The position numbers were made by a program, and so were the translations under genes. This document shows, one piece after another, positions 1,856 through 44,340 of a stretch of DNA of 64,000 nt (the stretch's first letter is position 1; each line of letters opens with the position of its first letter). The stretch comes from Enterococcus florum. Lineage in GTDB: Bacteria; Bacillota; Bacilli; Lactobacillales; Enterococcaceae. The stretch spans positions 124,001 to 188,000 of the forward strand of contig NZ_BJCC01000001.1 in the NCBI RefSeq assembly GCF_004309355.1. Direction: 5' to 3'. Under the pieces are notes generated by a model. That model had not been told where the DNA came from. It searched no databases and worked only from the letters and a program-made list of their open reading frames with translations.

Positions 1856-1867
1856 ACGCAAAGAAGT

Positions 1868-1901: not shown

Positions 1902-2011
1902 TTTGGAGCTTCACAGGATTTCGCCTTTTTTCAAATTTCCTCTGTTGTAAAATCAGACTCTCTACAATTTTTATTTTGATTGTTTGACGATATGAAGATT
2001 TTTTAGCTGCG

Positions 2012-2048
2012 TAAAAAACTCCTCAGAAATAAGCTTCCTGAGGAGTTT
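2012..2048 (-). terminator. rho-independent terminator of the aldo/keto reductase gene
   Basis: An 11-bp stem AAACTCCTCAG / CTGAGGAGTTT; read on the minus strand it ends in a run of six T. Confidence 0.85.
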
Positions 2049-2069
2049 ACGAATTTATCCTTGATTGGT

Positions 2070-2885: not shown

Positions 2886-2924
2886 TCTCATCATTCCTCC
2901 TTGTTCTCTCCTCAATACACCAAG

Positions 2925-2972
2925 CTCCACAATAAAGCGAGCAGGACTGTACCTACAACCTTTATTGTGGAG
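2925..2972. repeat. perfect 13-bp inverted repeat
   Basis: CTCCACAATAAAG (2925-2937) and its exact complement (2960-2972) are separated by 22 nt. There is no T run on either side, so it is not an obvious terminator. It lies between the ABC permease gene and the aldo/keto reductase start and could be an operator or an RNA hairpin. Confidence 0.5.
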
Positions 2973-2992
2973 TTGATTGAACATTTGGTCAA

Positions 2993-5153: not shown

Positions 5154-5180
5154 ACTTTCATTCCTCCATTCACTACTTGT

Positions 5181-5648
5181 TTACATTTTTTTACGATAGT
5201 AAAAATAGCTGACCATATAGATCAATCCGAAAAGATACAGCAATCCACTAGATACCTTCAATAGCAAAGGATCGAAAAAACTTCCAATCACACTGGCCAC
5301 AACCAAAGAAGCCGTTAGAAAGTATGTTGCAATACTTTGTGCACGCAGAACGATGTTTTGCGTTCGTTCATCTGTACTTTCAATTCTCGCCTTACGCAAC
5401 ATTTTGGGGTTGTTCATGATTCGAGTGTTTCGGAAAATGAAAATCACAAATGTTAAAATGATCGCACTGAACAACCCTGAAAGAAAGTCTTTCCCATGTT
5501 CCTGAATGGACAATTCAAACAGCTGTATGCCGAATCGTAAAAAAAGCATGGAAAAAAGTAAAACCAAAACGACTAAACCATACCAACGGTTTTTCCGGAT
5601 TAATCTATCTCGATAGACTTGATCTGCTGAAGTCAACTTTTCCATCAC
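5181..5648 (-). CDS. small integral membrane protein, unknown function
   Basis: 155 residues with four hydrophobic segments (about residues 25-45, 55-72, 108-125 and 130-150) and a charged stretch between the second and third. I do not recognise a characterised family. It overlaps the XRE regulator gene by 4 bp (ATGA type) and precedes the ABC exporter, so the four genes form one transcription unit. Pairs of a very small XRE protein and a four-helix membrane protein next to an ABC exporter are common in Firmicutes. Roles in immunity or signal sensing are possible but not shown here. Confidence 0.7.
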   Translation of the reverse strand: MMEKLTSADQVYRDRLIRKNRWYGLVVLVLLFSMLFLRFGIQLFELSIQEHGKDFLSGLFSAIILTFVIFIFRNTRIMNNPKMLRKARIESTDERTQNIVLRAQSIATYFLTASLVVASVIGSFFDPLLLKVSSGLLYLFGLIYMVSYFYYRKKM

Positions 5649-5845
5649 TGTTCCTCCTCAAAAATGAATACTTCCTCGATTGCTAAGTCAAAAAAACGGG
5701 CTACCTTGTGAGCCAAGAGCAGCGAGGCATTGTATCGTCCATTTTCTAACGAAATGATCGTCTGTCTCGTTACTTCCAAATGATCTGCCAGTTCACTTTG
5801 AGTCATTCGACGTTCTTTACGTAATTCCTGGATTCGATTTTGCAA
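5645..5845 (-). CDS. small XRE-family DNA-binding regulator
   Basis: 66 residues made up almost entirely of one helix-turn-helix domain: RKERRMTQSELADHLEVTRQ is the Cro/CI-type motif and the C-terminus ends in an acidic tail. Such minimal regulators usually repress their own operon. The start codon is TTG at 5845, supported by GGAGGGGG seven bases upstream. Three copies of a 16-bp repeat in its promoter region (5862-5931) are the probable binding sites, which suggests autoregulation of this gene, the membrane protein and the ABC exporter. Confidence 0.85.
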   Translation of the reverse strand: MQNRIQELRKERRMTQSELADHLEVTRQTIISLENGRYNASLLLAHKVARFFDLAIEEVFIFEEEQ

Positions 5846-5861
5846 TTAAACCCCCTCCAAT

Positions 5862-5931
5862 GTATAGTCCGCTTTACATCTTACACCAAAAAGTATAGCA
5901 CGCTTTACTTTTATTGTAAAGCGTACTATAC
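5862..5931. promoter_or_regulatory. three 16-bp operator-like repeats with embedded promoter
   Basis: GTATAGTCCGCTTTAC (5862-5877), GTATAGCACGCTTTAC (5893-5908) and, inverted, GTAAAGCGTACTATAC (5916-5931). The first two are direct repeats 31 bp apart, about three helical turns. On the minus strand TTTACA of the inverted copy and TATACT overlapping the middle copy are 17 bp apart, a good vegetative promoter for the XRE operon; the first copy lies between that promoter and the start codon. This is the layout expected of an autorepressed operon. Confidence 0.75.
5887..5931 (-). terminator. rho-independent terminator of uvrC
   Basis: The inverted pair of repeats forms a 16-bp stem with a central mismatch and a 7-nt loop, followed on the minus strand by TTTTT. 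The stop codon TAG of uvrC lies inside the left arm, so the same DNA closes uvrC and starts the next operon. Confidence 0.75.
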
Positions 5932-7710
5932 ATTTTTTTCCTCATGAACTTGATTGTACACATTTTGAGCAACAGTCATCGGCAAACCGATCGCTTTTAA
6001 TTCTTCTACTGAAGCTGCTTGAATATTTTTTAAGGATTTAAATTCCTTTAGCAAAAGTTTTTTCCGTTTCGGTCCCAATCCTTCAATTTCGTCTAGCTTG
6101 GAAGCAAAGCTGTTTTTACTTCGCAATTGACGATGAAAGGTGATCGCAAAACGGTGGACTTCATCTTGGATTCTCTGCAGTAAGAAAAACTCCTGCGAAT
6201 TTCTTTCTAAAGGTATCCGTTCTAAGTTTGTACCAAAAAGCAGCTCACTGGTTTTATGTTTATCATCTTTGGCTAATCCTGCAATCGGAATATCTAGCCC
6301 TAGCTGATTATCCAATACATCTTTGGCAGCATCAACCTGTCCCTTCCCTCCATCGATCACAATCAAATCAGGAAATGGTAAGCCTTCTTTCAGTACACGG
6401 GAGTATCGACGATAGATCACCTCTCGCATGGAAGCATAATCATCCGGCCCTTTGACCGTTTTGATTTTATATTTTCGGTACTCTTTTTTAGCTGGCCTGC
6501 CATCAATAAAGACGACCATTGCTGATACCGGATCTGATCCCATGATGTTGGAATTATCGAAGGCTTCGATGCGAATCGGCTCTGGAATGTTCATCGCATT
6601 ACCTAGCCGTTCAACTGCCCCAATTGTACGGGCCTCGTTACGTTCAATCAAATCAAATTTCTCATTTAAAGCGACGTGAGCATTTTTCCCAGCAAGCTTC
6701 ACCAATTTTTTCTTTTCTCCACGCTGCGGCTGCAATACTTTTGTAGCCAATAAAGCTTCAACACTGGTTTTATCGATATCGTCTGGAATCAATACTTCTT
6801 TCGGAATAAAATGTTCATTTTCTTGATAGAACTGACCAATGTAAGTTAGAAAATCTTCTTGGGCTTCATTATAAAAGGGAAACATCGACACATCTCGTTC
6901 GATCAGCTTCCCTTGTCTGATAAAGAAGACCTGGACACACATCCACCCTTTGTCTGTGGCATAACCAAAGACATCACGGTCCACTAAATCGGCATTGGTC
7001 ATTTTTTGCTTAGTCATCACCGTCTCAATTGCCTGAATTTGATCGCGATACTCTGCAGCCTTCTCAAACTCCATGTTTTCAGCGGCATCGTTCATCTTTT
7101 TTTCCAACACCGTTTGTACTTCGGTGTGTCCACCATTTAAAAAGCGCTTGATCTCATTGACCATCATCTTGTAGCGGACACTCGGAATATCAAAAATGCA
7201 TGGAGCTAAGCACTGCCCCATATGGTAATAAAGACAAACTTCCTTTGGCAAAGTTTTGCACTTTCTTAGCGGAAATAGACGATCCAATAGTCTTTTAGTT
7301 TCATTGGCAGCTCCAACATCTGGATATGGGCCAAAATACAAGGCTTTATCCTTTACTACCTTTCGAGTGATCAGTAAACGAGGGTAATCCTCATTCGTGA
7401 TTTTAATGAAAGGATAGGTTTTATCATCTTTCAACATGATATTGTATTTTGGATCATTCTTTTTGATCAGATTGATTTCCAGAATCAACGCTTCAATGTT
7501 TGACTCTGTCACAATGTATTCAAAATCCACGATTTCGCTGACCAGACGCTCGGTTTTAGTATCATGACTGCCAGTAAAATAAGAGCGGACACGATTTTTC
7601 AAGATCTTAGCTTTTCCAACGTAAATGATCGTGCCATTCTTGTCTTTCATTAAATAGCATCCCGGTTGATCTGGCAACAAGGCTAATTTATTTTTGATTC
7701 GTTCATTCAT
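5926..7710 (-). CDS. uvrC: excinuclease ABC subunit C
   Basis: Endonuclease subunit of nucleotide excision repair that makes the dual incision next to UvrAB-bound lesions. The N-terminal GIY-YIG domain starts with [14 protein letters not shown] and contains IIYVGKAK. The UVR motif that binds UvrB is at about residues 200-235. The RNase H-like C-terminal nuclease domain carries EAFDNSN and VIDGGKGQV, and tandem helix-hairpin-helix motifs ([13 protein letters not shown]) end the protein. The 594-residue length is normal. It is the last gene of the zapA-cvpA-mutS2-trxA-uvrC block, separated from trxA by a terminator. Confidence 0.97.
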
Positions 7711-7802
7711 CGCTAGCTTCCCTTCAACATCTTCAAAAAACGGTAAAACGACCTCACGAACTTGTTTCGCATTTAAGCAATAATCATTCGTGGGGCCCGA
7801 TC

Positions 7803-7858
7803 TCTTGAGGCTTTTTCTTCACTGTTTGACCATGAAGAAAAAGCTGAGCCTCAGCCCA
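7803..7858 (-). terminator. terminator between trxA and uvrC
   Basis: Long stem pairing GGCTTTTTCTTCA with TGAAGAAAAAGC, with extra GAGG/CCTC pairing at the base. It follows the trxA stop and contains T-rich stretches; uvrC starts 93 bp further on. Confidence 0.6.
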
Positions 7859-7868
7859 GCTTTGACAC

Positions 7869-8183
7869 CTACATATGTGCGCTGATCAATTCTTTTAATT
7901 GATCTTTTGTATGAACACCGATTACTTTGTCAACCACTTGTCCGTCTTTTTTCAAGACGAGTGTCGGAATGCTCATGATTCCAAAAGAAGCAGGTGTTTC
8001 TGGATTTTCATCTACATCCATTTTAACGATTTTCAGGTCGTCTTCTCCATATTCTTCACCAAGTTGCTCTAAAATCGGCGCTTGCATGCGACAAGGACCG
8101 CACCAAGTAGCCCAAAAATCTATCAAGACTAATCCTTTATCGGTTTCTTCATTAAATGTTGTATCTGTAACTGCTTGTGACAT
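7869..8183 (-). CDS. trxA: thioredoxin
   Basis: General cytoplasmic disulfide reductase. The active site WCGPC is at residues 28-32 in the FWATWCGPCRM block and the cis-proline loop IPTLV follows at about residue 74. The start is the ATG at 8183 (MSQAVT), preceded by GGGAGG. The frame stays open for 11 more codons, but these lack a ribosome binding site. The resulting 104 residues are the standard length. It lies downstream of mutS2 as in related genomes and is the likely partner of the reductase at the left edge of the window. Confidence 0.95.
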   Translation of the reverse strand: MSQAVTDTTFNEETDKGLVLIDFWATWCGPCRMQAPILEQLGEEYGEDDLKIVKMDVDENPETPASFGIMSIPTLVLKKDGQVVDKVIGVHTKDQLKELISAHM

Positions 8184-8268
8184 GTATGTATCCCTCCCAA
8201 AAATTTCTATGACCATTATAGCATGCTCTTTCGTTCGTGGCTATTTTTCTGCTTACACTTGTAAACAA

Positions 8269-10629
8269 TTATTTAAAGGTGACTACTGTAGCCCCACTGC
8301 CGCCTTCATTGCCCGCTGCAAATTCAAAACTTTTGACCTGCCGGTTGTTCTTCAAATATTCTGTAATGCCTTTTCGAAGCGCACCAGTTCCCTTGCCGTG
8401 AATAATTCTGACTTGTGGATAATTTGCCAACAATGCAGCGTCAATGTATTGATCTACTTCGGCTAACGCTTCTTCGTATCGTTTCCCTCGAAGGTCCAGC
8501 TCCGGTTTTACTTGGGCGCTTGCTCCGCGTTGAACACCAGTTACAACTCTTTGTTTTGGCTCTTCGAGTGGCGCAACAGGCGCCATATCCTCTTCTGCTA
8601 TCGTCATTTTTAAAATTCCTAATTGGACTTGCCACTGTTCATTTGCCATTTTTTTGATCAAGGTTCCCCTTTGTCCGTAGGTCTCGACCAATACTTCATC
8701 TCCAGCATGAAATTGTTTCTTCGCCTTCGCTTTTTGGAGAACTTTATTTTTTTTGAGATGTTCGTCCTGCTTCAAATCTTCTAATTGCGAACGTGCACCG
8801 ATCAACTGATGCTCTTTCACTGTGCCTTGACCTTCTAATTGCATTTTTCGAATATCTTTAATGATCTTCTCGGCATTCTCTTGAGCTTCTTGTACAAGTA
8901 AATTGGCTTTTTTTCTCGCCTTTTCCATCTCTTTTTCGCGCTCATCAAAGAAATAAGTGTATGCATTCTTCAAATCGCGATACAAGATCTCTGATTCCTG
9001 TACATAATGGCGAACTTCGTGGTATTCCGTTTCTGTCATCTTACGTTGGTTTTCCAGATCCGCTATCATCTCATTCAAATCTTGACTTTCTTCATCGATG
9101 ATTTGCTTAGCACTTTCAATCACTGCAGCATCCAGTCCGAGTCGTCGAGAAATTTCAAACGCATTGCTTCGTCCAGGAACACCAATCAGCAAACGATACG
9201 TCGGACTCAACGTATCCACATCGAACTCCATACTGGCATTGATCGTATTCGGACGATTATAGCCATAGATTTTTAACTCAGGATAATGGGTCGTAGCCAT
9301 CACGTAAGAAGATTTCATACCTACTGCGTCTAAGATTGCTATAGCCAGAGCAGCCCCCTCTTGAGGATCCGTCCCAGCACCTAGTTCATCAAAGAGCACC
9401 AAACTTCGCTCGTCGATCTTTTCTAAAATCGATACGATGTTGGTCATATGAGAAGAAAACGTCGATAAACTTTGTTCGATCGATTGTTCGTCGCCGATAT
9501 CAGCAAAAATCTCTTGGAAAATACCCATCTGACTTTCTTCAGCTACTGGCAAGGGCAATCCGGCTTGTCCCATCAGCTGTAAAATTCCTAGTGTTTTCAA
9601 CGTGATCGTTTTGCCACCAGTATTTGGGCCGGTGATAACCACCGCTTGATACTCTTCTCCGATCCGAATATCATTAGCAACAGCCATATCCTGATTCAGC
9701 AATGGATGTCTGGCCTGCTTGAAAAACACATGATTGTCTCGACTGATTGCTGGTACGACTGCTTTCAATTCTTTAGCGAAACGTGCTTTGGCATTCATTA
9801 CATCAAAGCGGCCCAATACATAAGCATTGTGCAAAATCTCTCGTCGATAAGGAGCTAGGTCAGCTGAAAGTTCGGATAAAATCCGTTCGATCTCACTACG
9901 TTCAGCGATTTGCTGTTGCCGCAATCGATTGTTCAAATCAACGACTTGTTTTGGTTCAATAAACAAGGTTTGTCCAGATGAACTTTGATCATGCACGACA
10001 CCACCAAAGATGCTGCGGTATTCTTGTTTTACTGGGATTACATATCGGTCGTTACGCATCGTTATGATTGGATCACTCAGATACTTCGCATTCTTTCCAC
10101 GAACCAATCCATCTAATTTCTCGCGAATCGTTTGTTCGCTTCGCCTTATTTGACTGCGGATTGTCCGTAATTCAGAAGAAGCCTCGTCCTTGATTCGGCC
10201 ATCCTCTTCAACAGAACGACGCAATCGTCCGCTTAATTCGGGTAAAGTCACCAATTGATCTGCCCAAAAATAAAGGCGGAGAAACTCCAGCTCGTTGTCT
10301 TTCAGGTCATCAATAAATCGCATGATCTCGCTCGTTGTAGAAAGCACGCGTGAAACTTCTGCCAATTCTAGACCATTTAAGTTTGCCCCAATTTCGACTC
10401 GTTTCATATGAGGTTTGATATTCATTAATTTGGGTACAGGAAGTCCTCCACGCAACCGTAGAACGTTTAGTCCATCTTCCGTTTCTTCCAACCAAGACCG
10501 AACAACCTCTCGATCACTAGAAGGTACGAGCTTGCGGAGCTCTTCAGACCCTTGCATAGTCGCTAGATGATTTGCGATCATTGCCTTAACCTCATCAAAT
10601 CCAAGCGTTGTCAGAATTCGTTCATTCAT
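8269..10629 (-). CDS. mutS2: endonuclease/ribosome-rescue ATPase MutS2
   Basis: MutS-related ATPase without the mismatch-recognition domain. Members are reported to suppress recombination or, in Bacillus, to act on collided ribosomes. Visible parts are the core helical region, the ATPase with Walker A GPNTGGKT near residue 335 and Walker B LVLFDELGAGTDP, a long charged coiled coil (about 515-640), and a C-terminal Smr domain (LDLRGKRYEEA ... IIHGKGTGALR). The length of 786 residues is typical. It follows cvpA and precedes trxA. Confidence 0.96.
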   Translation of the reverse strand: MNERILTTLGFDEVKAMIANHLATMQGSEELRKLVPSSDREVVRSWLEETEDGLNVLRLRGGLPVPKLMNIKPHMKRVEIGANLNGLELAEVSRVLSTTSEIMRFIDDLKDNELEFLRLYFWADQLVTLPELSGRLRRSVEEDGRIKDEASSELRTIRSQIRRSEQTIREKLDGLVRGKNAKYLSDPIITMRNDRYVIPVKQEYRSIFGGVVHDQSSSGQTLFIEPKQVVDLNNRLRQQQIAERSEIERILSELSADLAPYRREILHNAYVLGRFDVMNAKARFAKELKAVVPAISRDNHVFFKQARHPLLNQDMAVANDIRIGEEYQAVVITGPNTGGKTITLKTLGILQLMGQAGLPLPVAEESQMGIFQEIFADIGDEQSIEQSLSTFSSHMTNIVSILEKIDERSLVLFDELGAGTDPQEGAALAIAILDAVGMKSSYVMATTHYPELKIYGYNRPNTINASMEFDVDTLSPTYRLLIGVPGRSNAFEISRRLGLDAAVIESAKQIIDEESQDLNEMIADLENQRKMTETEYHEVRHYVQESEILYRDLKNAYTYFFDEREKEMEKARKKANLLVQEAQENAEKIIKDIRKMQLEGQGTVKEHQLIGARSQLEDLKQDEHLKKNKVLQKAKAKKQFHAGDEVLVETYGQRGTLIKKMANEQWQVQLGILKMTIAEEDMAPVAPLEEPKQRVVTGVQRGASAQVKPELDLRGKRYEEALAEVDQYIDAALLANYPQVRIIHGKGTGALRKGITEYLKNNRQVKSFEFAAGNEGGSGATVVTFK

Positions 10630-10653
10630 TTTTTCACCTTCTACTATAAAATA

Positions 10654-10687
10654 AACCGAAATCCTTTTCGTATGCAGGATCCCGGTT
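10654..10687 (-). terminator. possible terminator between cvpA and mutS2
   Basis: Minus-strand hairpin AACCGGGATCCT / AGGATTTCGGTT with a short loop, then TATTTTAT. The T tract is weak, so partial readthrough into mutS2 is likely. Confidence 0.45.
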
Positions 10688-10693
10688 TTTGAT

Positions 10694-11242
10694 TTAACCT
10701 ATGATTCTTGATACCCATAATGTTTCAAAAGCCGGACTTAAAAACAAGGAATGCTCCACAATAAATATGGCCAGCCCGCTGCCATCGAGTGCATTTTGAA
10801 CCAATGCCAGTGGAATGAACGATGCCAATTTTAATAGAAGAAAAATCAACATGTATGACAAAAATACAGAGATAGCACCTGCAATGAGTCCATCGTACTT
10901 CGCAAAAAGAACTCGAAACAACAAGTTCTTAAAGAACACAGCAATTAAATGGGTGATCAGCCAGCCAATCAAGATAATGCTCATGAAGGCGACACCTGCA
11001 TAAAAAGCCTTATCTAATTCAAAGCCTTGTTCAACCGTATAAAACACCATCGTCGATTCACTCGTCACCGAAGGATACGGAACGAACAAGTCCAAACGCT
11101 CCCCTAATCCCTTATAAAAAAATAAAGCAAGAATAAATGAGATCGCATATCCGATCGTAAAGAATAATTGATAGGCTGTACCACGTCGATATCCTGTATA
11201 AAAGGAAATCAACAAAAAAAATAGAATAATCAGAGTTAACAT
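10694..11242 (-). CDS. CvpA family membrane protein
   Basis: 182 residues with four hydrophobic segments and the N-terminal YTGYRRGTAYQLFF block that marks the CvpA family (colicin V production protein homologues). The function in Firmicutes is not settled; effects on envelope and biofilm have been reported for relatives. It lies 12 bp downstream of zapA and upstream of mutS2, the usual gene order. Confidence 0.88.
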   Translation of the reverse strand: MLTLIILFFLLISFYTGYRRGTAYQLFFTIGYAISFILALFFYKGLGERLDLFVPYPSVTSESTMVFYTVEQGFELDKAFYAGVAFMSIILIGWLITHLIAVFFKNLLFRVLFAKYDGLIAGAISVFLSYMLIFLLLKLASFIPLALVQNALDGSGLAIFIVEHSLFLSPAFETLWVSRIIG

Positions 11243-11254
11243 AGGATTCCTCGC

Positions 11255-11689
11255 TTATTTATTGGCCGCACGCTTTTGGATCTCACGTTTGCGGTTTTCG
11301 TTCACAATTTGTTGTGCTTCTACATGATTGCGGATCTGCGCATGGTTGTTACCATTCTTTTGCAAAATCGATTTTGCTTCGGCTTCCACTGCCTCAATCT
11401 TTCTGATTCTGTTTTCCAATTCCACAGACCGGGCCGCTTTTCGCTGCAGCTCGTTTTGATGTTTTTTCAATCTTAATAGCTCTTCTTGCTTTTTCACTTG
11501 ATCCGATACTGCATTGATCGCCAGTAAGATCGCTGCTTGTTCCAGTGAAACATCTTGTGACAACCCTTTGATCTCTGTCAATTGTTCATTGACTAGAGCA
11601 ACAACCAGATCCATATGTTGCTTGGACTCTTGACCAATAATAGTATAAGTCTGGCCAGCAACTTCTGCTTTGTATCTATTTTGAGCCAT
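11255..11689 (-). CDS. zapA: cell division protein ZapA
   Basis: Cytoplasmic protein that bundles FtsZ filaments at mid-cell. The N-terminal globular domain begins KAEVAGQTYTIIG and is followed by a long helix with heptad character (about residues 65-130) that makes the dimer coiled coil. I chose the ATG at 11689 (MAQNRYK) because GGAGGG precedes it; 17 further upstream codons are open but lack a site. At 144 residues it is somewhat longer than Gram-negative ZapA, with a basic C-terminal tail. Confidence 0.88.
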   Translation of the reverse strand: MAQNRYKAEVAGQTYTIIGQESKQHMDLVVALVNEQLTEIKGLSQDVSLEQAAILLAINAVSDQVKKQEELLRLKKHQNELQRKAARSVELENRIRKIEAVEAEAKSILQKNGNNHAQIRNHVEAQQIVNENRKREIQKRAANK

Positions 11690-11977
11690 GCAAATCGTCC
11701 CTCCATAAGCATGTTTCGTTTTCGTCATTCGCAAAAACACTGAGTCTATTATATGCTAAAACAGGAGGTTTTTACAACTTTCAATGAATAAAACCCAATT
11801 AAATTAAGGAAAAGAGAAATATTTTATGCGTTCGGCCGTAGTAAACTTATAAAAAATGCTATATAGTCATCGATTGGCTGTCCAATCGATGAAGTTGTGG
11901 CAGTCTTACAAGCTATAGAAGCAGGAAAAATAGCCAAAAGCAGCACCATTTGGAATCTGTACTGATTTTGACTATTG

Positions 11978-13081
11978 TTAGATATAACGATTTTCTCTCA
12001 ATTTTATTCCTTGGATCTCTTCGATGGTTTGCACGCCGGCTAACTGCATTACCATTTCCAATTCTGTTTGGAAAAATTCAAAGACTTGACGAATACCGAC
12101 AGAACCGCCCAACGCCAAGCCATAGATCGCTGGGCGACCAATGGCGACAAGATCGGCCCCAGAAGCTAAAGCTTTAAAAACATGTTGTCCTCGGCGAACA
12201 CCGCTGTCGAATACGATCGGGACCCGTCCATCAACTGCTTTTGATACATACTGTAAAGAATCAAAGGCAGCAGGTCCGCCATCTAATTGACGCCCACCGT
12301 GGTTAGATACCCAAATCCCGTTTGCACCTGCTGACAGTGCCCGTTCTACATCTTCCTCTGACTGAACTCCTTTTACATAAACAGGCAAGGAAGAATGCTC
12401 GACAATAAATTCAACATCTTTGGGACTCAGTTTTTGCTTTGATGAACCATAAACAGCATTCATCGTCTGTCCAACGCCGGTCTGATAGGATTCAACGATC
12501 GGCATCGCCAATGGAAATGTGAACCCATTTCGTCGATCTGTTTCACGATTCCCACCAACTGTAGCATCTGCTGTCAAAACAATCGCTTTTGCTCCGTTAG
12601 CTTTCGCTTGTTCAAGGATCGTCAAATTGATTCCGTCATCTTTACTCATATAAAACTGAAACCATTGATTAGCAGAAGGGCCCGCTGCCTGTCTGATCTG
12701 TTCCATCGTTCGCGAAGCATAAGAACTGATGGTGTAAATGGTCCCATATTCGGCTACTCCTTTTGCTGACGCTTCTTCGCCTTTTGTATTTGCCAATCCA
12801 TGAGCAGCCACTGGAGCCATGATGATAGGCGAGCGTAGCTTCTCTCCTTCAAACAATTTTTCTGTGGAAGGCAGTTCAACATCCTTCAAGACATGAGGGA
12901 TAATTAATTGATGTTCAAATGCCCGTTCGTTCTCTCGATAAGTAAAAACGTCTCCTGCTCCACTGCTGATATATCCAAATCCGCCTTTAGGAATAACCTC
13001 CTGAGCCATGTGTTCAAGGTCAAACATGTTTATAAAATTGATAGTCCCTTCGGCATCGCTGGTCTGATAAATTTCTGTCAT
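11978..13081 (-). CDS. L-lactate oxidase (FMN-dependent)
   Basis: Flavoenzyme that oxidises L-lactate with O2 to pyruvate and H2O2. It shows the alpha-hydroxy-acid oxidase barrel: APVAAHGLA, QFYMSKDD, VLTADATVGGNRETDRRNGF, VYVKGV, and the FMN/active-site block IWVSNHGGRQLDGGPA with the catalytic His and Arg, then VFDSGVRRGQHVFKALASGA. The loop around GNRETDRRNGF and the overall 367 residues fit the lactate oxidases of aerococci and related cocci better than lactate dehydrogenases LldD. The ribosome binding site is weak. A cre-like site 35-48 bp upstream suggests carbon catabolite control. Confidence 0.88.
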   Translation of the reverse strand: MTEIYQTSDAEGTINFINMFDLEHMAQEVIPKGGFGYISSGAGDVFTYRENERAFEHQLIIPHVLKDVELPSTEKLFEGEKLRSPIIMAPVAAHGLANTKGEEASAKGVAEYGTIYTISSYASRTMEQIRQAAGPSANQWFQFYMSKDDGINLTILEQAKANGAKAIVLTADATVGGNRETDRRNGFTFPLAMPIVESYQTGVGQTMNAVYGSSKQKLSPKDVEFIVEHSSLPVYVKGVQSEEDVERALSAGANGIWVSNHGGRQLDGGPAAFDSLQYVSKAVDGRVPIVFDSGVRRGQHVFKALASGADLVAIGRPAIYGLALGGSVGIRQVFEFFQTELEMVMQLAGVQTIEEIQGIKLRENRYI

Positions 13082-13115
13082 TTCCTACACATCCCGTCCT
13101 AAATAATCACTATTC

Positions 13116-13129
13116 AAAAAACGCTTACA
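13116..13129 (-). promoter_or_regulatory. candidate cre (CcpA) site of lactate oxidase
   Basis: Minus-strand TGTAAGCGTTTTTT matches the cre consensus TGWAARCGYTWNCW at 13 of 14 positions. It lies 35-48 bp upstream of the lactate oxidase start. Confidence 0.55.
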
Positions 13130-13253
13130 AGCAAATCCTACTCCAGTCATTTAAAGCTGACAAATAATCTGTTTGTTCTACAACATAATCAGCTTGTTAA
13201 AAACGTTAGGAAAACTTATAGTAGAAGAAAAGAATACGAAGGGAAGTGTTAAG

Positions 13254-13745
13254 ATGAAATTTGCAGTCATTTACTATAGTGTTAGCGGCAATACAAAATC
13301 GATGGCTGAAGAAATTGCTGAGGGCATCCGAATCGCTGGAGAAGAAGCTCGATTGTTTTCGATTGAAGAGAACGTAGATCCTGCCTATCTTGAGCAATGT
13401 AAAGGAATCCTATTTGGAACGCCGACTTATGTGGCGACCAGTCACTGGAAAATGATCGAATGGCTGAATCATACTTCTGGAATAAATCTATCTGGAAAGT
13501 TAGGCGGATGTTTCGCAACAGCTCACTATGCTCAAGGCGGTGGAGACACTGCGATCTTGTCAATGATCGGTGTGTTATTAGTCAAGGGGATGCTTATTTA
13601 TTCAGGAGGAGCCGCTTTCGGCCAACCATTTATTCACCACGGACCAATTGCTTTAGATGCTGTCGGTACCCATTTTGAGGATTCTCGGGAAATGTTCAGA
13701 ATATTTGGTGAACGATTTGCAAATAAAGCCCTTGAGCTGTTTTAA
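13254..13745 (+). CDS. flavodoxin family protein
   Basis: FMN-binding electron carrier or quinone reductase of the flavodoxin/WrbA-like fold. The N-terminal phosphate-binding loop is YYSVSGNTKSMAE (residues 8-20); GTPTYVATSHWKMIEW and the GGCFATAHYAQGGG stretch follow. The start is ATG 13254 after AAGGGAAGTG; 27 upstream codons are open but unsupported. At 163 residues it is longer than classical flavodoxins. The large GGGD segment resembles NAD(P)H:quinone oxidoreductases, but the electron partner is unknown. It is a single gene, divergent from lactate oxidase. Confidence 0.8.
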   Translation: MKFAVIYYSVSGNTKSMAEEIAEGIRIAGEEARLFSIEENVDPAYLEQCKGILFGTPTYVATSHWKMIEWLNHTSGINLSGKLGGCFATAHYAQGGGDTAILSMIGVLLVKGMLIYSGGAAFGQPFIHHGPIALDAVGTHFEDSREMFRIFGERFANKALELF

Positions 13746-13748
13746 AAG

Positions 13749-13862
13749 AGGCGGCGACAAAAGCGTTTAGCTCCGAGAAATCAGCCGGATAATCCGAAAA
13801 TAACTTCTCTTATTTTTGCGAATAGGCGGCTGATTTCCGAAAGAACTGTTTCAGCCACACCG
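13749..13862. repeat. palindromic intergenic repeat unit
   Basis: Between the convergent flavodoxin and trkH genes. GAAATCAGCCG (13777-13787) is exactly complementary to CGGCTGATTTC (13827-13837), with an inner pairing of AAAATAA and TTATTTT. It would fold into a long cruciform-like hairpin. The start AAAGAGGCGGCGACA resembles AAAGAGGTTGTGACA at 13877, as if the unit were bounded by related ends. It looks like a dispersed intergenic repeat. Confidence 0.5.
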
Positions 13863-13876
13863 ATTATGCGGATTTT

Positions 13877-13910
13877 AAAGAGGTTGTGACAGTGCTGTCA
13901 CAGCCTCTTT
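13877..13910. terminator. terminator of trkH
   Basis: A 16-bp stem AAAGAGGTTGTGACAG / CTGTCACAGCCTCTTT with a 2-nt centre, overlapping the trkH stop codon; it can serve both directions. Confidence 0.7.
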
Positions 13911-15348
13911 ACTCTCGCCAAAAAGCCTTTGAAAAAAGAATAAACAACGGGAAAATTTCCAATCTTCCAGCCAACATGACAAACGACAAAACAACTTTTG
14001 AAGGGTTGGAGAGAAATCCATAGTTCCCCATCGGTCCAACCTCACCAAAGCCTGGACCAACGTTGTTAATACAAGTGGCAACGGCGGAAAAGGTTGTTTG
14101 AAAGTCAACATTCTCTAATGACAAGAAAATCAAAGCCCCTGCAAATGTCATTAGGTACAATACCAAATAAGCATGAATATTGTTCAACGTCTTGATGGAA
14201 ACCGACATTTTCTCAAAGCTGACCGTCAATACACTTTGAGGGTGAATCAATTTTTTGATTTCCTTCGCCGCATTTTTAACAAACATTACGATGCGAGATA
14301 CTTTGATGCCTCCACCTGTAGAACCAGAACAAGCACCGACGAACATCAATAGCAAAAGAAGGGTTTGCGAAAACATCGGCCATTGATTATAGTCTGCTGT
14401 AGCAAAGCCTGTAGTCGTTATGATTGACGCGACCTGAAAAGCAGCATATCTGAAAGCTGCTGAAAATGAATGGTACAAAGGCTGAATATTGATGGTGATT
14501 CCTGCAATTGCTGCAGCAATAATGCCTAAATACCATAATAACTCCTCATTTTTCAATACAGCAAGTACTTTTCCAACCAGCAAAAAATACAATAAATTGA
14601 AGTTGATTCCGAAAAGGATCATAAAAATCGTAATAACGCCATCAATGTAGGCACTTTGATAGCCGATAATGCCTGCTGTACTCATTGAAAATCCGCCAGT
14701 ACCTGCAGTAGCAAACGCGTTCAGCAAACTGTCAAACACCGGCATTCCGCCTAAAAGCAATAAGAGAACTTCAATCAAGGTCAAGGCTGTGTAAATGACA
14801 TACAGAATTCGCGCGGATACATGGATTTTAGATACTAATTTCCCTACAATAGGACCAGGCATTTCCGCCTTCAAAATGTGCATTGTTCTTCCCGAAGCCA
14901 ACGGAATAAAGGCTACCGTAAAAACTAAAATTCCCATCCCGCCTATCCAATGTGTGAAACTCCGCCAAAAAAGACTAGCATGGCTCATGTGATCTAAGTT
15001 TGATAAAATCGAAGCCCCTGTAGTCGTGAACCCAGAAACGGTTTCGAAAAAAGCATCAATGTAAGAGGGTATCTCACCGGTTAAAACAAAAGGAAGAGCA
15101 CCAAATGCTGACAACAAACACCAACTGATGCCCACGATAAAAAAACCCTCTTTCGCATAAATTTTTCGATTTTCAAGTGGATGACGGCTAATAAAGGAGC
15201 CTAGCAGGAAAACGATCAGACCGACTGACACATAATCCAGACTTGATTGTTCCTGATAGATCAAACCAACCAGAACAGGAAAGAGCATCAGAAGTCCTTC
15301 TACTTTCATCAATTTCCCTAATGTATAAACGATCATTTTCTTATTCAT
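13909..15348 (-). CDS. Trk/Ktr potassium uptake membrane subunit
   Basis: Ion-translocating subunit of a Trk/Ktr K+ transporter. Many membrane segments alternate with four pore loops; filter-like sequences TVSGFTTTGAS, FATAGTGGFS, IITTTGFATAD and CINNVGPGFG are spaced as in TrkH/KtrB proteins. GACSGSTGGGIK follows the third loop. The 479-residue length fits TrkH. It is co-transcribed with the regulatory subunit gene immediately upstream (9 bp gap), which is of the two-RCK TrkA form, so TrkH is the better label. Confidence 0.93.
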   Translation of the reverse strand: MNKKMIVYTLGKLMKVEGLLMLFPVLVGLIYQEQSSLDYVSVGLIVFLLGSFISRHPLENRKIYAKEGFFIVGISWCLLSAFGALPFVLTGEIPSYIDAFFETVSGFTTTGASILSNLDHMSHASLFWRSFTHWIGGMGILVFTVAFIPLASGRTMHILKAEMPGPIVGKLVSKIHVSARILYVIYTALTLIEVLLLLLGGMPVFDSLLNAFATAGTGGFSMSTAGIIGYQSAYIDGVITIFMILFGINFNLLYFLLVGKVLAVLKNEELLWYLGIIAAAIAGITINIQPLYHSFSAAFRYAAFQVASIITTTGFATADYNQWPMFSQTLLLLLMFVGACSGSTGGGIKVSRIVMFVKNAAKEIKKLIHPQSVLTVSFEKMSVSIKTLNNIHAYLVLYLMTFAGALIFLSLENVDFQTTFSAVATCINNVGPGFGEVGPMGNYGFLSNPSKVVLSFVMLAGRLEIFPLFILFSKAFWRE

Positions 15349-15357
15349 GTCGCTCTG

Positions 15358-16719
15358 CTATCTCCTGACAATCTCATTCAAATTACTAATTTTTTTATCT
15401 TTCGTGATTATTACGATATGGTCGTTTAAGCGGATCCTAGTTTCTCCATTAGGAATTACGAAACCTCTTTCCCTGGAGATTGCTGCGATCAAAAGCCCTT
15501 CACGTAAATTTAAACTGGCTATTTTTTGATCGATAAATGAAGTGTGCTTTGTCACGATAAATTCTAAACCTTCTACTTCGTCATTGATGATTTTGTGCAA
15601 TGTCTTTACACTGGTGTCATCATCTTTGTTGTCTTTTGCACGAACGTAGCGCAGGATTTGCGAGGCAATAATGCTTTTAGGAGAAATCACACTATCAATA
15701 TCAATTTGATCCAAAACACTGGTAAAATTCATCCTAGTGACCTTTGCAACGGTCTTCTTAGCATTCATCTGCTTTCCATATAAAGAGATCACAATATTTT
15801 CCTCATCAAGTCCGGTCAAAGAAACAAGCGCATCAATTTTTTCAATTCCTTCTTCAATCAACACCTCTTCGTCACTTCCATCAGCCTCAATGATGGTTAC
15901 GTGGGAAAGTTTTCGAGACAGCTCCAGACAACGTTTTGAATTGTTCTCAATTATTTTGACCCGAATTCCTTGGGTTGATAATTGCTGAGCAAGGTAAAAG
16001 GCAATCCTCCCTCCACCGATAATCATCACACGTTTGCTCTTGTGTTCAAATAGCCCAATATCCTGACAAAATCGAACCAAATCCCGGTGCTGTCCAGTGA
16101 CATAAATACGATCATTTTGTTCCAATACAAAATTACCGTCAGGAATAATCAACTCACATTTTCTTCGTACAGCGCAGATCAGTACATTGGTTTTAGATAC
16201 CTTTGGCAAACGACTCAACGAAATTCCGGAAAGCTTGGTCTTTCCTGTCAAACGAAATTCTGCCAGCTCAATCTTTCCACTGACAAATGTATCTACTTTG
16301 AATGCAGAAGGAAACATTAGAATCCGTCGAATCTCATTGGCGGCTTCTAGTTCTGGGTTGACGATCATCGACAGTCCCAATTGATCCCGCATGAACGAGC
16401 GTTGCTTCAAATATTCTGGATTTCTCACCCGAGCGATCGTATTATCTGCACCCATGCGTTTAGCCATCAGACAAGCCAAAATATTCAATTCATCCGAATC
16501 CGTCACCGCAATAATGATATCCGCTTCCTTAATGTCCGCTTCTTCCAAAACATCGTAAGTCGCTCCATTTCCGCTTATTCCAAATACGTCAAACTGATCT
16601 ACGATTTTTTCTACTTTTTCACTGTGCAGATCAATGATCACCAGGTCATGGTCTTCGTCTGATAAATGTTGCACAAGGGCCTTTCCGACTTTTCCAGCAC
16701 CCAAAATAATAATTTTCAC
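15358..16719 (-). CDS. trkA: Trk system potassium uptake regulatory protein TrkA
   Basis: Cytoplasmic gating ring subunit of the Trk K+ channel. It has two successive Rossmann RCK domains, each starting with a nucleotide-binding glycine motif (ILGAGKVGKALV at residue 4; MIGGGRIAFYLAQ near 235), and two TrkA-C domains. The duplicated organisation and 453 residues are typical of TrkA rather than the single-domain KtrA. The start is GTG at 16719, six bases after AGGAGG; the ten further upstream codons have no site. It lies upstream of trkH in the same operon. Confidence 0.93.
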   Translation of the reverse strand: MKIIILGAGKVGKALVQHLSDEDHDLVIIDLHSEKVEKIVDQFDVFGISGNGATYDVLEEADIKEADIIIAVTDSDELNILACLMAKRMGADNTIARVRNPEYLKQRSFMRDQLGLSMIVNPELEAANEIRRILMFPSAFKVDTFVSGKIELAEFRLTGKTKLSGISLSRLPKVSKTNVLICAVRRKCELIIPDGNFVLEQNDRIYVTGQHRDLVRFCQDIGLFEHKSKRVMIIGGGRIAFYLAQQLSTQGIRVKIIENNSKRCLELSRKLSHVTIIEADGSDEEVLIEEGIEKIDALVSLTGLDEENIVISLYGKQMNAKKTVAKVTRMNFTSVLDQIDIDSVISPKSIIASQILRYVRAKDNKDDDTSVKTLHKIINDEVEGLEFIVTKHTSFIDQKIASLNLREGLLIAAISRERGFVIPNGETRIRLNDHIVIITKDKKISNLNEIVRR

Positions 16720-27296: not shown

Positions 27297-27413
27297 ATGC
27301 AAAAACATTCGGAGCGATCAGAACAGCTGTTGAAACTCGCGGCCATGTTAAGTGCAGTAAGTCTATTCTTAAAAATCATTACCCTTTTCATCGATCGCAA
27401 GCAAAAAAGCTAG
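27297..27413 (+). CDS. 38-residue hydrophobic peptide
   Basis: Short frame not previously obvious because of its length: a charged N-terminus (MQKHSERSEQ), one membrane-spanning stretch (residues 11-32) and a basic tail ending RKQKS. The ribosome binding site AGGAGGGTGATC (27282-27293) is close to a perfect complement of the 16S 3' end. TATAAT at 27261-27266 is a likely -10 box. Its stop codon lies inside a terminator stem. The build (single helix, basic tail, strong translation) resembles type I toxin peptides, but I see no antitoxin RNA, so the role is unassigned. Confidence 0.6.
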   Translation: MQKHSERSEQLLKLAAMLSAVSLFLKIITLFIDRKQKS

Positions 27414-27439
27414 AAACCTTTTTAGGTTCTAGCTTTTTA
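27403..27439. terminator. bidirectional terminator
   Basis: AGCTAGAAACC / GGTTCTAGCT stem flanked by A6 on the left and T5 on the right. It ends the small peptide gene and, on the other strand, the tRNA-Gly transcript. Confidence 0.85.
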
Positions 27440-27440
27440 A

Positions 27441-27511
27441 AGCGGGTGACGAGAATCGAACTCGCGACGGAAGCTTGGGAAGCTTCTGTTTTACCACTAA
27501 ACTACACCCGC
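27441..27511 (-). tRNA. tRNA-Gly (anticodon CCC)
   Basis: The acceptor stem GCGGGTG pairs with CACCCGC; D loop AGTGGTAAAA; anticodon stem GAAGC / GCTTC closes the loop TTCCCAA, giving anticodon CCC; the T arm contains TTCGATT. The discriminator is T, as usual for bacterial glycine tRNAs. CCA is not encoded. Total length is 71 nt. Confidence 0.95.
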
Positions 27512-27594
27512 ATCGTATAAAATATTATATACCTGATTACGATTTGTTTCAAATAAATCCTCACCATTTTTCTTTGTTAGTAAGGAGCAACACT

Positions 27595-27930
27595 ATGGAT
27601 TCTTTAAATCAAGTTCAAGCAGTTCTCAAAACAGAAGCCCGTTTAATCATTTTTATTTCTTCTAAGTATTGACGTATTTGTCATGTCGACGAACCTCGAG
27701 TTCGAGGGATAGCAGAAAAATACGCCTTGCCGTACTATCACTTGGATATTTTAGATGAACCTGAGTTGTCAGGCTATTTCGAAGTATTGACTGTTCCAGC
27801 CGTTCTCATTTACTATTCTGGACAAGAGATCCTGCGCCAGGCACGATTCCTTGACTACCAAGAAATTGAAAAACGGATCATGCAGTTACCTGACCAACCT
27901 GACCTGTCAGACTATTCGACGTTATTTTGA
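27595..27930 (+). pseudogene. thioredoxin-like gene with in-frame TGA at the redox site (pseudogene or selenoprotein)
   Basis: The ATG at 27595 follows AAGGAG with 7-nt spacing, so translation surely starts here. Codon 26 (27670-27672) is TGA, and the same frame then continues without any other disturbance to 27930, for 111 codons in all. Around the TGA the protein reads FISSKY-(TGA)-RICHVDEPRV, exactly where thioredoxins have their Cys-x-x-Cys, and the later LTVPAVLIYY gives the cis-proline loop of the thioredoxin fold. So the TGA replaces the first redox Cys and would form Sec-Arg-Ile-Cys if recoded. One change from TGT or TGC also explains it. The downstream part has its own Met at 27727 but no good site. 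Confidence 0.75.
27694..27707 (+). other. small hairpin just after the in-frame TGA
   Basis: CCTCG-AGTT-CGAGG forms a 5-bp stem with a G in the second loop position; the loop starts 27 nt after the TGA, within the distance range of bacterial SECIS elements. An alternative stem CGAAC / GTTCG competes with it. The signal is suggestive only. Confidence 0.3.
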
Positions 27931-27965
27931 CACAACTCTGCGGGCGAATGAATGATTTTAGACAA

Positions 27966-27993
27966 TAAAAAAAGCAAGTTCGAAAACTTACTT
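27966..27993 (-). terminator. rex terminator
   Basis: Minus-strand AAGTAAGTT-TTCG-AACTTGCTT followed by T5; it overlaps the last codons of rex. Confidence 0.75.
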
Positions 27994-28629
27994 TTTATCG
28001 TCATCATTATGATGTAGAAAATAAATCAGTGTTTGTAATTCATTGGTTAAATCAACACTTTGGATGATTACATTACTAGGCGCGTTCAAACGTGCTGCTG
28101 TAAAATTCAAGATCCCCTTAATACCAGCATCGGTCAATTGATCAACCACTGGTTGAGCTTGTTGTGCAGGCAATGTTAAAATAGCGATCTCAATTTGCTG
28201 GAGTTTGATTTGCTCCACTAAATTGTCCATCGGATAAACTGGAATACCATCAACGATTCGGCCAACAATGTCTTCCTTGACATCAAATGCACAACTGACA
28301 CGAATGCTGTTGCTTTGATGAAACTTGAACTTTAATAAAGCGCTGCCTAGGTTCCCCACCCCGACGAGTGCCACATTAGTCAGCTGATCATCGTTAAGGA
28401 TCTTCCCGAAAAAATTCATCAAGTCCTCAACATCATACCCATATCCCCGCTTGCCTAACTCACCAAAATAAGAAAAGTCGCGGCGAATCGTTGCGCTGTC
28501 GACTTGAATCGCTTCACTTAGTTCTGTAGAAGAAACCTTTGTTTTACCTGCGTTATTCAAAATACGGAGATAACGATAATACAAGGGCAATCGTTTTACA
28601 GTCGCTTTTGGAATTGCGTTTTCTTTCAC
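27988..28629 (-). CDS. rex: redox-sensing transcriptional repressor Rex
   Basis: Senses the NADH/NAD+ ratio and represses fermentation and respiration genes. The N-terminal winged helix contains KVSSTELSEAIQVDSATIRRDFSYFGELGKRGYGYDV. The Rossmann domain has the NADH motif VGVGNLGSALL near residue 92, and the C-terminal domain-swapped helix carries the TNELQTLIYFL segment. The 213 residues are normal. An imperfect Rex-like site lies upstream (28722-28739), between rex and the ABC-F gene. Confidence 0.96.
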   Translation of the reverse strand: MKENAIPKATVKRLPLYYRYLRILNNAGKTKVSSTELSEAIQVDSATIRRDFSYFGELGKRGYGYDVEDLMNFFGKILNDDQLTNVALVGVGNLGSALLKFKFHQSNSIRVSCAFDVKEDIVGRIVDGIPVYPMDNLVEQIKLQQIEIAILTLPAQQAQPVVDQLTDAGIKGILNFTAARLNAPSNVIIQSVDLTNELQTLIYFLHHNDDDKK

Positions 28630-28721
28630 AATATCTCCCCTTTACAAAATTCTTGTTAGTCAATTTCAAATCCTATAATATCAAGAATAGATAGACAATT
28701 GCAACGTCTCTGCTCAAATAA

Positions 28722-28825: not shown

Positions 28826-30757
28826 ATGCTATTACTACAAGTAAATCAAGTGGCACGCTATTTTGGTGCTGAAACACTTTTTGAGAATATTCAGCTTGAG
28901 GTTTCTAGTCGCGGAAGAATCGGGTTAGTCGGTCGAAATGGGGCTGGAAAGTCTACCTTGTTAAAAATCATTGCTGGTGTTGAAAGCCCTGATGCAGGCC
29001 AAATCATTAAGAACAAGCAAACATCATTAGGCTACCTAGCTCAGGATACTGGTCTTGTTTCGAATGAGACCGTATGGAATGAGATGTTAAAGGCTTTCGA
29101 ACACTTGAGAAAAATGGAAGCCCGTATGCGTGAAGTTGAGCTTACTATCAGTACAGGGGCAGAATCTGATGAACGCTACGAAGCGTTACTAAAGGAATAT
29201 GACCAGCTGCAACATGATTTCAATGATCAAAATGGCTATGGCTATGAAAATGAGATTCGCAGTGTTCTGCATGGATTCAAATTCGATGACTCCTTTTATG
29301 AGAAACCCATCGACACTTTGTCAGGCGGACAAAAAACTCGTCTTGCACTGGCGCGAATGTTGCTGGTCAAGCCCGATATTTTGATTTTGGATGAGCCGAC
29401 AAACCATTTGGACATTGAAACACTTGCTTGGTTAGAAGATTATTTGCAAGCATACTCCGGTGCCCTGTTGATCGTTTCCCATGACCGATATTTTCTCGAT
29501 CAGGTCGTCACAGAGATCTATGAAATCTCTAGACAAAAAATGACCCACTACACCGGTAATTATTCGCGCTATTTGGACGTTAAAGCGGCACAAATTGCAA
29601 GTGATTGGAAAGCCTATGAGAAACAACAGGCAGAAATTGAAAAACTAGAAGATTTTGTCGCCCGCAATCTTGTTCGAGCATCCACAACAAAACGAGCACA
29701 AAGTCGCCGCAAGACCTTAGAAAAGATGGATCGTTTAGACCGACCCGACGGCAAAGAAAAGTCAGCACATTTTATGTTCGATATCGAAAAAGCTTCTGGA
29801 AATGTTGTTCTCCAGCTAGAAGATGGGGCAATTGGCTATGAGAAACCATTGGCAGAACCAATCAATCTAGATATTCGCCGTACAGATGCCATTGCTTTAG
29901 TCGGTCCAAATGGGGTTGGAAAATCGACTCTGCTTAAGTCGTTGATCGACCAAATTCCTTTTTTAAGAGGAAAACCACATTTCGGAACCAATGTTTCTAT
30001 TGGTTATTATGATCAAACTCAGGCAGATCTTCATGGAAACAAGACGATTTTGGCTGAGTTATGGGACGAACATCCGACAGTTCCGGAAAAAGAAATTCGA
30101 TCTGTATTAGGCGGGTTTTTATTTAGTGGAGAGGATGTAGAAAAAACGATTCCCTTGCTTAGCGGAGGCGAAAAAGCGCGGGTCGCATTAGCGAAGCTAT
30201 CTATGAATAAAGAGAATTTTCTAATTTTAGATGAACCCACCAATCATTTAGATATTGACAACAAAGAGGTTTTGGAGAATGCCTTGATCGATTTTGAAGG
30301 AACCTTGCTATTTGTCTCACACGACCGGTACTTTATCAACCGGTTGGCAAATAAGGTGGTCGAGCTGTCTCCTGAAGGCAGCAGGTTGTATTTAGGTGAC
30401 TACGATTATTATCTTGAAAAGAAAAAAGAAGAAGAAGAAATTGCTGCATTATTAGCTGAAGAAACAACTGTGGTTGACCCTGCGCCTAGAAATAAATTCT
30501 ATCAAGACAAAGAACAACAAAAGATGATTCGCAGCCTTCGCCGAAAAATAGAGACCCTCGAAGAGAATTTAACGATTTTAGAAACGACTATTGCACAGTT
30601 AGAAGAGTCGATGACGCAGCCAGAACTATTGAACGACCATGTAAAGTTGACGGAATTATCTGCCGAACTAGAAGCCAAAAGGCAAGTACAAGAAGAACAG
30701 TTGACTCAATGGGAAGAATTGAGTTTAGAGTTGGAAGAAATCACTAGTACGACTTAA
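28826..30757 (+). CDS. ABC-F family ATPase (YdiF-like)
   Basis: Soluble protein with two ABC domains in one chain and no membrane part. Walker A GRNGAGKST and GPNGVGKST, signatures LSGGQKTRLALAR and LSGGEKARVALAK, Walker B ILILDEPTNHLD and FLILDEPTNHLD. The P-site tRNA interaction linker lies between the domains (about residues 235-310), and a C-terminal coiled coil (about 565-640) ends the protein. ABC-F proteins act on translating ribosomes. The length (643) and coiled-coil tail fit the YdiF/Uup branch rather than the antibiotic-resistance forms, but that is not certain. It is divergent from rex. Confidence 0.92.
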   Translation: MLLLQVNQVARYFGAETLFENIQLEVSSRGRIGLVGRNGAGKSTLLKIIAGVESPDAGQIIKNKQTSLGYLAQDTGLVSNETVWNEMLKAFEHLRKMEARMREVELTISTGAESDERYEALLKEYDQLQHDFNDQNGYGYENEIRSVLHGFKFDDSFYEKPIDTLSGGQKTRLALARMLLVKPDILILDEPTNHLDIETLAWLEDYLQAYSGALLIVSHDRYFLDQVVTEIYEISRQKMTHYTGNYSRYLDVKAAQIASDWKAYEKQQAEIEKLEDFVARNLVRASTTKRAQSRRKTLEKMDRLDRPDGKEKSAHFMFDIEKASGNVVLQLEDGAIGYEKPLAEPINLDIRRTDAIALVGPNGVGKSTLLKSLIDQIPFLRGKPHFGTNVSIGYYDQTQADLHGNKTILAELWDEHPTVPEKEIRSVLGGFLFSGEDVEKTIPLLSGGEKARVALAKLSMNKENFLILDEPTNHLDIDNKEVLENALIDFEGTLLFVSHDRYFINRLANKVVELSPEGSRLYLGDYDYYLEKKKEEEEIAALLAEETTVVDPAPRNKFYQDKEQQKMIRSLRRKIETLEENLTILETTIAQLEESMTQPELLNDHVKLTELSAELEAKRQVQEEQLTQWEELSLELEEITSTT

Positions 30758-32660: not shown

Positions 32661-32930
32661 AAAAAAGCCTTAGACACCTAAAAAGATATCTAAGGGCAAA
32701 CATTTGCGGTACCACCTTATTTTTTACAGCTATTTGTTGCGTGCTGTCTCGAACAGTCTCCATTCGGACACTGTTGCCAGCTAACGGGGCTAGCCGTACC
32801 TTCTTACTTATCAGAAGATCCACTCAAAAGCCATTTTCTGAACGAACGAATTCCATCTCTTTTCAGCTGCCGAGACTCTCTGTTAGAACCGTGATCGATC
32901 ATACTTTCTTTTTCATCGTGTTTTATATTT
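32661..32930 (-). promoter_or_regulatory. T-box leader (probably methionyl-tRNA sensing)
   Basis: Minus-strand leader of the methyltransferase gene. The T-box sequence AAGGTGGTACCGC lies at 32706-32718, the terminator stem CCTTAGATATC / GTGTCTAAGG with T6 at 32661-32696, and the Stem I side holds the AGAGAG motif. A candidate specifier AUG occurs in GAGAUGGAA of the Stem I region, consistent with methionine, but I could not fold the leader to prove it. Confidence 0.85.
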
Positions 32931-44079: not shown

Positions 44080-44340
44080 AATTTTTTCCTCCCGAATATT
44101 TAAACAATAAACGTGTAAAATAATCTATTTTTATACACAATAGCAGAATTTGATGAAAATAGCAATGCTTCTTTTCTTTCTTGTTTAAATCCTCTATGAT
44201 AAAAGGGTGCATTTAAAATCGAGTGTGGAAACTCGGACTGGTTCGAAAACTTCCCAGAATAAAAAACTAAGTATCTCTTGATGAAGGGGTTGTACTGTCC
44301 ATTTGCAAACTGTTCATCAGAAAGAAGGAGGTTAGAAAAA

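Follow-up and report, generated by a model that had tools for sequence, protein, structure and literature searches.

The gene and its in-frame UGA codon

The DNA analysed in this study (the window) is a stretch of 64,000 nucleotides (nt) from Enterococcus florum, positions 124,001 to 188,000 of contig NZ_BJCC01000001.1. It carries a thioredoxin-like gene, referred to here as trx, whose frame is interrupted by a TGA codon. Region 27595-27930 is very probably an intact selenoprotein gene, in which the UGA at codon 26 would be decoded as selenocysteine (Sec) to give a UxxC product with a thioredoxin fold. The gene has the following features.

27595 to 27930, plus strand: thioredoxin-like gene, predicted to encode a selenoprotein, 111 codons plus a TGA stop
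27670 to 27672, plus strand: in-frame TGA (UGA), codon 26, first position of U-R-I-C, predicted to be read as Sec
27582 to 27587, plus strand: ribosome binding site AAGGAG, read directly, ahead of the ATG at 27595
27679 to 27681, plus strand: TGT codon of the predicted resolving Cys (Cys29), located by alignment of orthologues

An earlier note on this DNA described a frame of 111 codons with a good ribosome binding site and a single TGA at codon 26, and direct reading confirmed it: the only internal stop of the plus-strand frame was this TGA, in the context SSKY-TGA-RICHVD. In a plain open reading frame (ORF) listing the gene appears as two pieces, broken at the UGA.

With the TGA read as a residue, the product passed the Pfam family PF00085 over residues 8-87 (25.6 bits, cut-off 23.5). 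The TrxA equivalog model TIGR01068 gave 26.8 bits and its curated cut-off of 96.8 bits was not reached. Judged by these models, the protein appears to belong to the thioredoxin family and not to be the housekeeping TrxA of TIGR01068. An AlphaFold2 model, built from 19 orthologues with Cys placed at position 26, had a mean predicted local distance difference test (pLDDT) score of 83.8 and a predicted template modelling (pTM) score of 0.77, and Foldseek matched it to thioredoxins. Residue 26 was located between the strand 16-22 and the helix starting at 29, where the redox motif is normally found. The PF00085 match and the model with its Foldseek matches both agree with the earlier proposal that the two halves form a single thioredoxin fold. 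Among proteins of solved structure, the best relative in a profile search was PDB 4euy (E value 4.9e-16, positions 2-96), the Bacillus cereus thioredoxin-like protein BCE_0499, which is described only as uncharacterized or thioredoxin-like.

Selenocysteine machinery and conservation of codon 26

Comparisons were made with samples of 20 genomes from the genus, 105 from the family and 398 from the phylum. The window's own genome (G000; 3,992,582 bases in 73 contigs) had one selB gene over the cut-off (361.9 versus 242.25 bits) and, on the same contig, a tRNA-Sec gene scoring 71.1 bits versus 47, which ARAGORN also called as tRNA-SeC. The genes clustered with selB were a class-V-aminotransferase (cysteine-desulfurase-like) gene as well as selD and selA, the last two named from reading the ORF list. 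All four genes selA, selB, selC (tRNA-Sec) and selD were found in the genome. The earlier note had held that a lack of selB or tRNA-Sec would speak against a selenoprotein; both were present, and the selenoprotein option is supported.

Three other genes of this genome carried an in-frame TGA, namely prdB (UGTC), grdA (CFVU) and a grdB-type gene (UGTC). Except for prdB and selB, the gene names in the sel, prd and grd clusters are those we assume from the sequence. In locus L017 (G000:C8:32000-50000), positions 206-14158 contained proline reductase genes and the TGA-containing prdB, followed by selD, selB, the desulfurase-like gene and selA. Both selB and tRNA-Sec were detected in 19 of the 20 genus genomes, the sole exception for both being G013, which is 78% complete. 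The prdB gene was over the cut-off in 18 of the 20, every one with an in-frame TGA. The earlier view of a lineage in which selenocysteine is not expected does not hold for this genus.

An orthologue of trx was found in all 20 genus genomes. Codon 26 was TGA in five of them (G000, G001, G005, G010 and G012), each with one internal TGA that always fell on this codon, and TGC or TGT in the other 15; Cys29 was invariant in 20/20 aligned orthologues. The stop is located on the first position of the CxxC motif, as the earlier note had read it, and an in-frame UGA occupies a conserved redox position at which homologues have Cys. A family search at an E value of 1e-12 matched 65 of the 105 genomes, with an internal stop solely in those five; among the 45 matched genomes outside the genus none had one, and all ten that were read had Cys.

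Eighteen named loci were obtained by an alignment-based contig search. TGA was found in four other species, more than a coincidence would give: E. alishanensis, E. pallens, E. sp. 669A and E. sp. 665A. Cys codons were found in the remaining 14, consisting of E. avium, two records titled E. raffinosus, E. malodoratus, E. hermanniensis, E. viikkiensis, E. devriesei, E. hulanensis, E. pseudoavium, E. dongliensis, E. pingfangensis, E. xiangfangensis, sp. MJM16 and sp. CSURQ0835. At the phylum level, a search at an E value of 1e-15 matched 22 of the 398 sampled genomes, a count that includes the window's own. A stop inside the match was seen in four further rows: in L100, L109 and L112 it was C-terminal and the active site had Cys, and the row in G176 had one TGA and one TAG. 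Fifteen records of a plasmid collection matched, and the two that were read, an unannotated one from A. noterae and one from E. faecalis, had Cys.

Since the machinery is in the genome and TGA is kept where sister species have Cys, UGA 26 is predicted to be read as selenocysteine.

The codons past the UGA are under purifying selection. For codons 27-111, the ratio of nonsynonymous to synonymous substitution rates (dN/dS) was 0.08-0.21 for those Sec-Sec pairs, 7 of 10, that had an estimable dS (0.74-2.75); in the other three pairs dS was saturated, and the corresponding ratio of uncorrected proportions (pN/pS) was 0.33-0.36. Codons 1-25 were less constrained, with dN/dS of 0.05-0.62 where measurable. 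Such constraint on the tail would not be expected of a gene ending at codon 26. Selection of this kind suggests that the TGA is old and that the region after it is translated.

The neighbours of trx were as follows.

27441 to 27511, minus strand: tRNA-Gly gene, upstream neighbour of trx
27988 to 28629, minus strand: rex-type redox-sensing repressor gene, conserved convergent neighbour
28826 to 30757, plus strand: ABC-F type ATPase gene, conserved neighbour

The names rex and ABC-F are assumed from the sequence; Rex is an NADH/NAD+-sensing repressor. The order tRNA-Gly, trx, rex, ABC-F was kept in nearly all 20 genus genomes. The tRNA-Gly gene was upstream of trx in 17 of the 18 named loci at variable distances, the exception (L076) being a locus that ends early. 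Of the 20 genus loci, 18 had rex adjoining trx; in G005 (named locus L074) it was about 2.2 kb away, and in G017 it was not found near trx. Among the 18 named loci it was downstream in 17, at close range in 16 of them and some 2.2 kb off in 665A, and was not found at the CSURQ0835 locus. The highest identity of the window's rex DNA was 79% over 636 columns, to 665A. With tRNA-Gly and rex conserved as neighbours, the trx genes are therefore orthologues at one locus.

A promoter scan of 27400-28050 gave three promoter-like sites, none of them on the plus strand upstream of the ATG. The window had one Rex-operator-like match with two mismatches (28614-28631, over the start of rex), and 0.90 was expected by chance; this match is no more than chance, and no convincing Rex-like operator was found at the trx gene.

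Several further observations were made. In E. sp. 665A, the approximately 2.2 kb separating the Sec-type trx gene from rex correspond to positions 3333-5590 of L074. The possibility that 665A (G005) had lost prdB and kept the machinery for trx alone was dropped, the contig (C86) starting just past the expected place of prdB. The 70 nt from the prdB UGA were nearly identical across 19 genus copies. Outside the genus, selB was over the cut-off in four Enterococcaceae genomes (G025, G082, G088 and G104) of three other genera. Just upstream of the window, on the minus strand of L118 (G000:C1:108000-124500), positions from about 7871 to 16484 held a betaine/glycine-reductase-type cluster, whose last 480 or so bases lie within the first bases of the window. 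We take this cluster to consist of trxB, trxA, the TGA-containing grdA, further grd-type genes, the TGA-containing grdB-type gene and a BCCT-type transporter gene. Within the window, a 38-codon ORF on the plus strand (27297-27413), with AGGAGG ahead and a terminator-like inverted repeat behind, would encode a small, hydrophobic peptide whose tail is charged, as judged by eye; presumably it resembles type I toxin or holin-like peptides. Rfam placed a T-box leader at 32689-32925 (minus strand) and a PreQ1 riboswitch at 44232-44276 (plus strand).

In G000, the CNAK motif of SelD (L017, 7773-8813) contained Cys, and a single one of the 20 genus genomes, not G000, gave an FdhA match. A 2006 survey, as far as its accessible text goes, stated that Sec-decoding organisms without FdhA have a Sec-containing SelD (PMC1794560). 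The combination of a Cys-type SelD in G000 and FdhA in 1/20 genus genomes departs from this statement.

The SECIS-like hairpin and alternative explanations

A hairpin resembling the bacterial selenocysteine insertion sequence (bSECIS) was observed downstream of the UGA.

27694 to 27707, plus strand: bacterial SECIS-like hairpin CCUCG-AGUU-CGAGG, loop at 27699 to 27702, 26 nt after the UGA

Its stem pairs 27694-27698 with 27703-27707 (5 bp). The earlier note had correctly described a 5-bp hairpin with G in its loop, here AGUU; the start that it placed 27 nt downstream is in fact 21 nt after the UGA, the loop following a 26-nt spacer. The hairpin was present at this fixed place in all five Sec genes, with five pairs in four of them and four in E. 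alishanensis; at the same place the named Cys genes formed 0-2 of the 5 pairs in all 13 tested (a set to which CSURQ0835 does not belong). The loops of the Sec genes had the form N1-G-U-N2, with ends A-U, C-G, C-G and C-G and a G/A mismatch in the fifth. In the bSECIS model, as given in the available part of its description, the loop has 3-9 nt with a G in the first two positions, the upper stem 4-16 bp, the spacer 16-37 nt and the energy is at or below -7.5 kcal/mol; the loop is mostly N1-G-[G/U]-N-N2, with N1 pairing with N2 (PMC13188914). The geometry of all five Sec genes agreed with this model (loop of 4, stem of 5 or 4, G at loop position 2, spacer of 26 nt). Their hairpin energies varied with the stretch folded, from -6.8 to -9.4 kcal/mol over 35 nt and from -10.9 to -19.7 kcal/mol over 66 nt.

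Several results weigh against decoding as Sec, most of them concerning the hairpin. Over 35 nt the Sec gene of 669A, at -6.8 kcal/mol, fell short of -7.5, and two Cys genes reached -8.3. With the amino acids of the Sec proteins (PRVRG) kept fixed, 26-27% of synonymous shuffles per gene formed the stem at this position, and 36-52% formed a hairpin of equal or better quality somewhere within the permitted range; with three lineages taken as independent, the joint chance calculated by hand was about 0.018 (0.266 × 0.263 × 0.262). A loosened bSECIS rule was satisfied elsewhere in 9 of 13 Cys genes, among which N17 outscored E. alishanensis. The 66-nt fold was no better than shuffles (z -0.61). When a basal helix below the hairpin was sought, the longer helix of G000 was out of register in the other Sec genes, and Rfam over 27660-27800 gave nothing at E values up to 1. 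Apart from the hairpin, 14 of the 19 selB-bearing genus genomes have Cys, and selB does not imply Sec in the trx protein. The Sec and Cys genes are told apart by the fixed place of the hairpin only, and not by the rule itself. The hairpin is consistent support, not proof, and is statistically weak alone; the weight of the selenoprotein case lies on codon conservation, machinery and selection rather than on it.

Three other explanations were considered. The UGA could be a conserved regulatory stop yielding mainly a short peptide, where a near-cognate tRNA, such as that for Trp or Cys, would read through and no selenocysteine would be inserted. The statistical weakness of the hairpin taken alone is in keeping with such a stop; the codon, however, coincides exactly with the redox Cys position, the loop conforms to the bSECIS rule, and TGA occurs in 5 of the 20 trx-bearing genomes with selB (19 from the genus plus G025) versus 0 of the 45 without a selB call, these genomes being related and not independent. 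We consider this explanation very improbable. Hardly to be credited either is that the catalytic Cys codon recently underwent a nonsense mutation, which would make trx a young pseudogene. A Cys codon (TGT or TGC) is the commoner state in the genus (15/20) and is one base away from TGA, yet TGA occupies the same codon in five species, dN/dS past it is well below 1 between Sec orthologues, and the Sec machinery is present. The recent single-base loss suggested in the earlier note was rejected, TGA being found in 5/20 genus genomes across dS from 0.74 to saturation. A sequencing or assembly error at 27670-27672, also raised there, can practically be dismissed, as the same TGA codon occurs in the genomes of E. 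alishanensis, E. pallens, E. sp. 669A and E. sp. 665A.

Relation to known selenoproteins and proposed role

Thioredoxin selenoproteins of the UxxC type (PF00085) have long been known, and organisms with a Sec-thioredoxin include Anaeromyxobacter, Geobacter, Carboxydothermus and Treponema denticola, according to the accessible parts of two surveys (PMC13188914; PMC1794560). The window protein would have in common with them the thioredoxin fold, Sec as the first residue of UxxC, and a bSECIS within the coding sequence. Unlike the known members described in those parts, it occurs in Enterococcus next to rex, and its score falls far short of the cut-off for the TrxA equivalog. SaoT (NF040730) and the HUIPC-type protein (NF047660) are likewise UxxC thioredoxin-like selenoproteins (PMC13188914, available in part); neither was among the five NCBIfam families listed for the window protein at E values up to 0.1. 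The Cys orthologues (E. avium, E. raffinosus, E. malodoratus, E. hermanniensis and others) share its locus and family, with 48-58% identity and the invariant Cys29; they differ in having Cys at position 26 and no hairpin at the SECIS place.

In the accessible text of the 2006 survey, E. faecalis was the sole member of Lactobacillales with selD, an orphan gene, and had no Sec trait (PMC1794560). The available part of a 2022 genome paper on E. durans reported annotated selenoprotein-related genes and bSECIS-like hits, including grdB, selA and selB, and the window protein was not among the selenoprotein-related genes listed there (PMC8894896). In the open-access literature searched, no report was found of the trx protein or of Sec decoding in E. 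avium-type species. Within these sources, trx is a new member of the known UxxC thioredoxin selenoproteins, in a clade for which no report of Sec decoding was found.

The direction of the Cys/Sec switch was approached with trees. The gene tree of 31 rows with all columns required one change (support 83/86). With codons 26-38 omitted (25 rows) two changes were required, one change sufficed in 50% of bootstrap trees, and a single Sec clade was not rejected (approximately unbiased test, p-AU 0.448). The tree of rex and ABC-F (23 rows) needed two changes, and 11% of its bootstrap trees gave one. These trees are compatible with a single gain, with two gains and with a gain that was later followed by a loss, and they do not fix the direction. 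G025, a selB-bearing genome outside the genus, has kept Cys, as judged by the absence of an internal stop; Sec machinery alone thus does not appear to decide between Sec and Cys in trx. For comparison, the survey text available counted 33 changes from Cys to Sec, spread over 17 families of which 15 are homologous to thiol redox proteins; changes from Sec to Cys numbered 15, in four families (PMC1794560).

We infer the following course for the E. florum protein. SelB and tRNA-Sec would decode UGA 26 as selenocysteine, guided by the small SECIS hairpin inside the coding sequence. The product would be a 111-residue thioredoxin-fold protein with Sec-Arg-Ile-Cys where most relatives carry Cys-Ser-Ile-Cys. 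Sec26 would attack a substrate disulfide, and Cys29 would resolve the mixed selenide-sulfide. By analogy to its family, the protein is most likely a thiol/selenol-disulfide oxidoreductase. A role in anaerobic redox balance is suggested by the neighbouring rex gene and by the selenium-dependent reductases that the genome encodes, though no convincing Rex-like operator was found at trx. A more specific and rather doubtful proposal is a selenium-gated thioredoxin at the rex locus: the electron-carrying Cys would be Sec in part of the genus, the amount of active protein would follow selenium supply, and the protein may serve the selenium-dependent Stickland reductases (proline reductase and betaine/glycine reductase), sister species having kept or regained Cys.

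The gene adds to the order Lactobacillales a probable selenoprotein that a plain ORF search splits. Because congeneric species have the machinery and the locus in common and differ at one position, the old question of what advantage Sec has over Cys is testable with the orthologues of close relatives. If the proposal of selenium gating is true, the genus would offer a natural experiment on why Sec replaces Cys.
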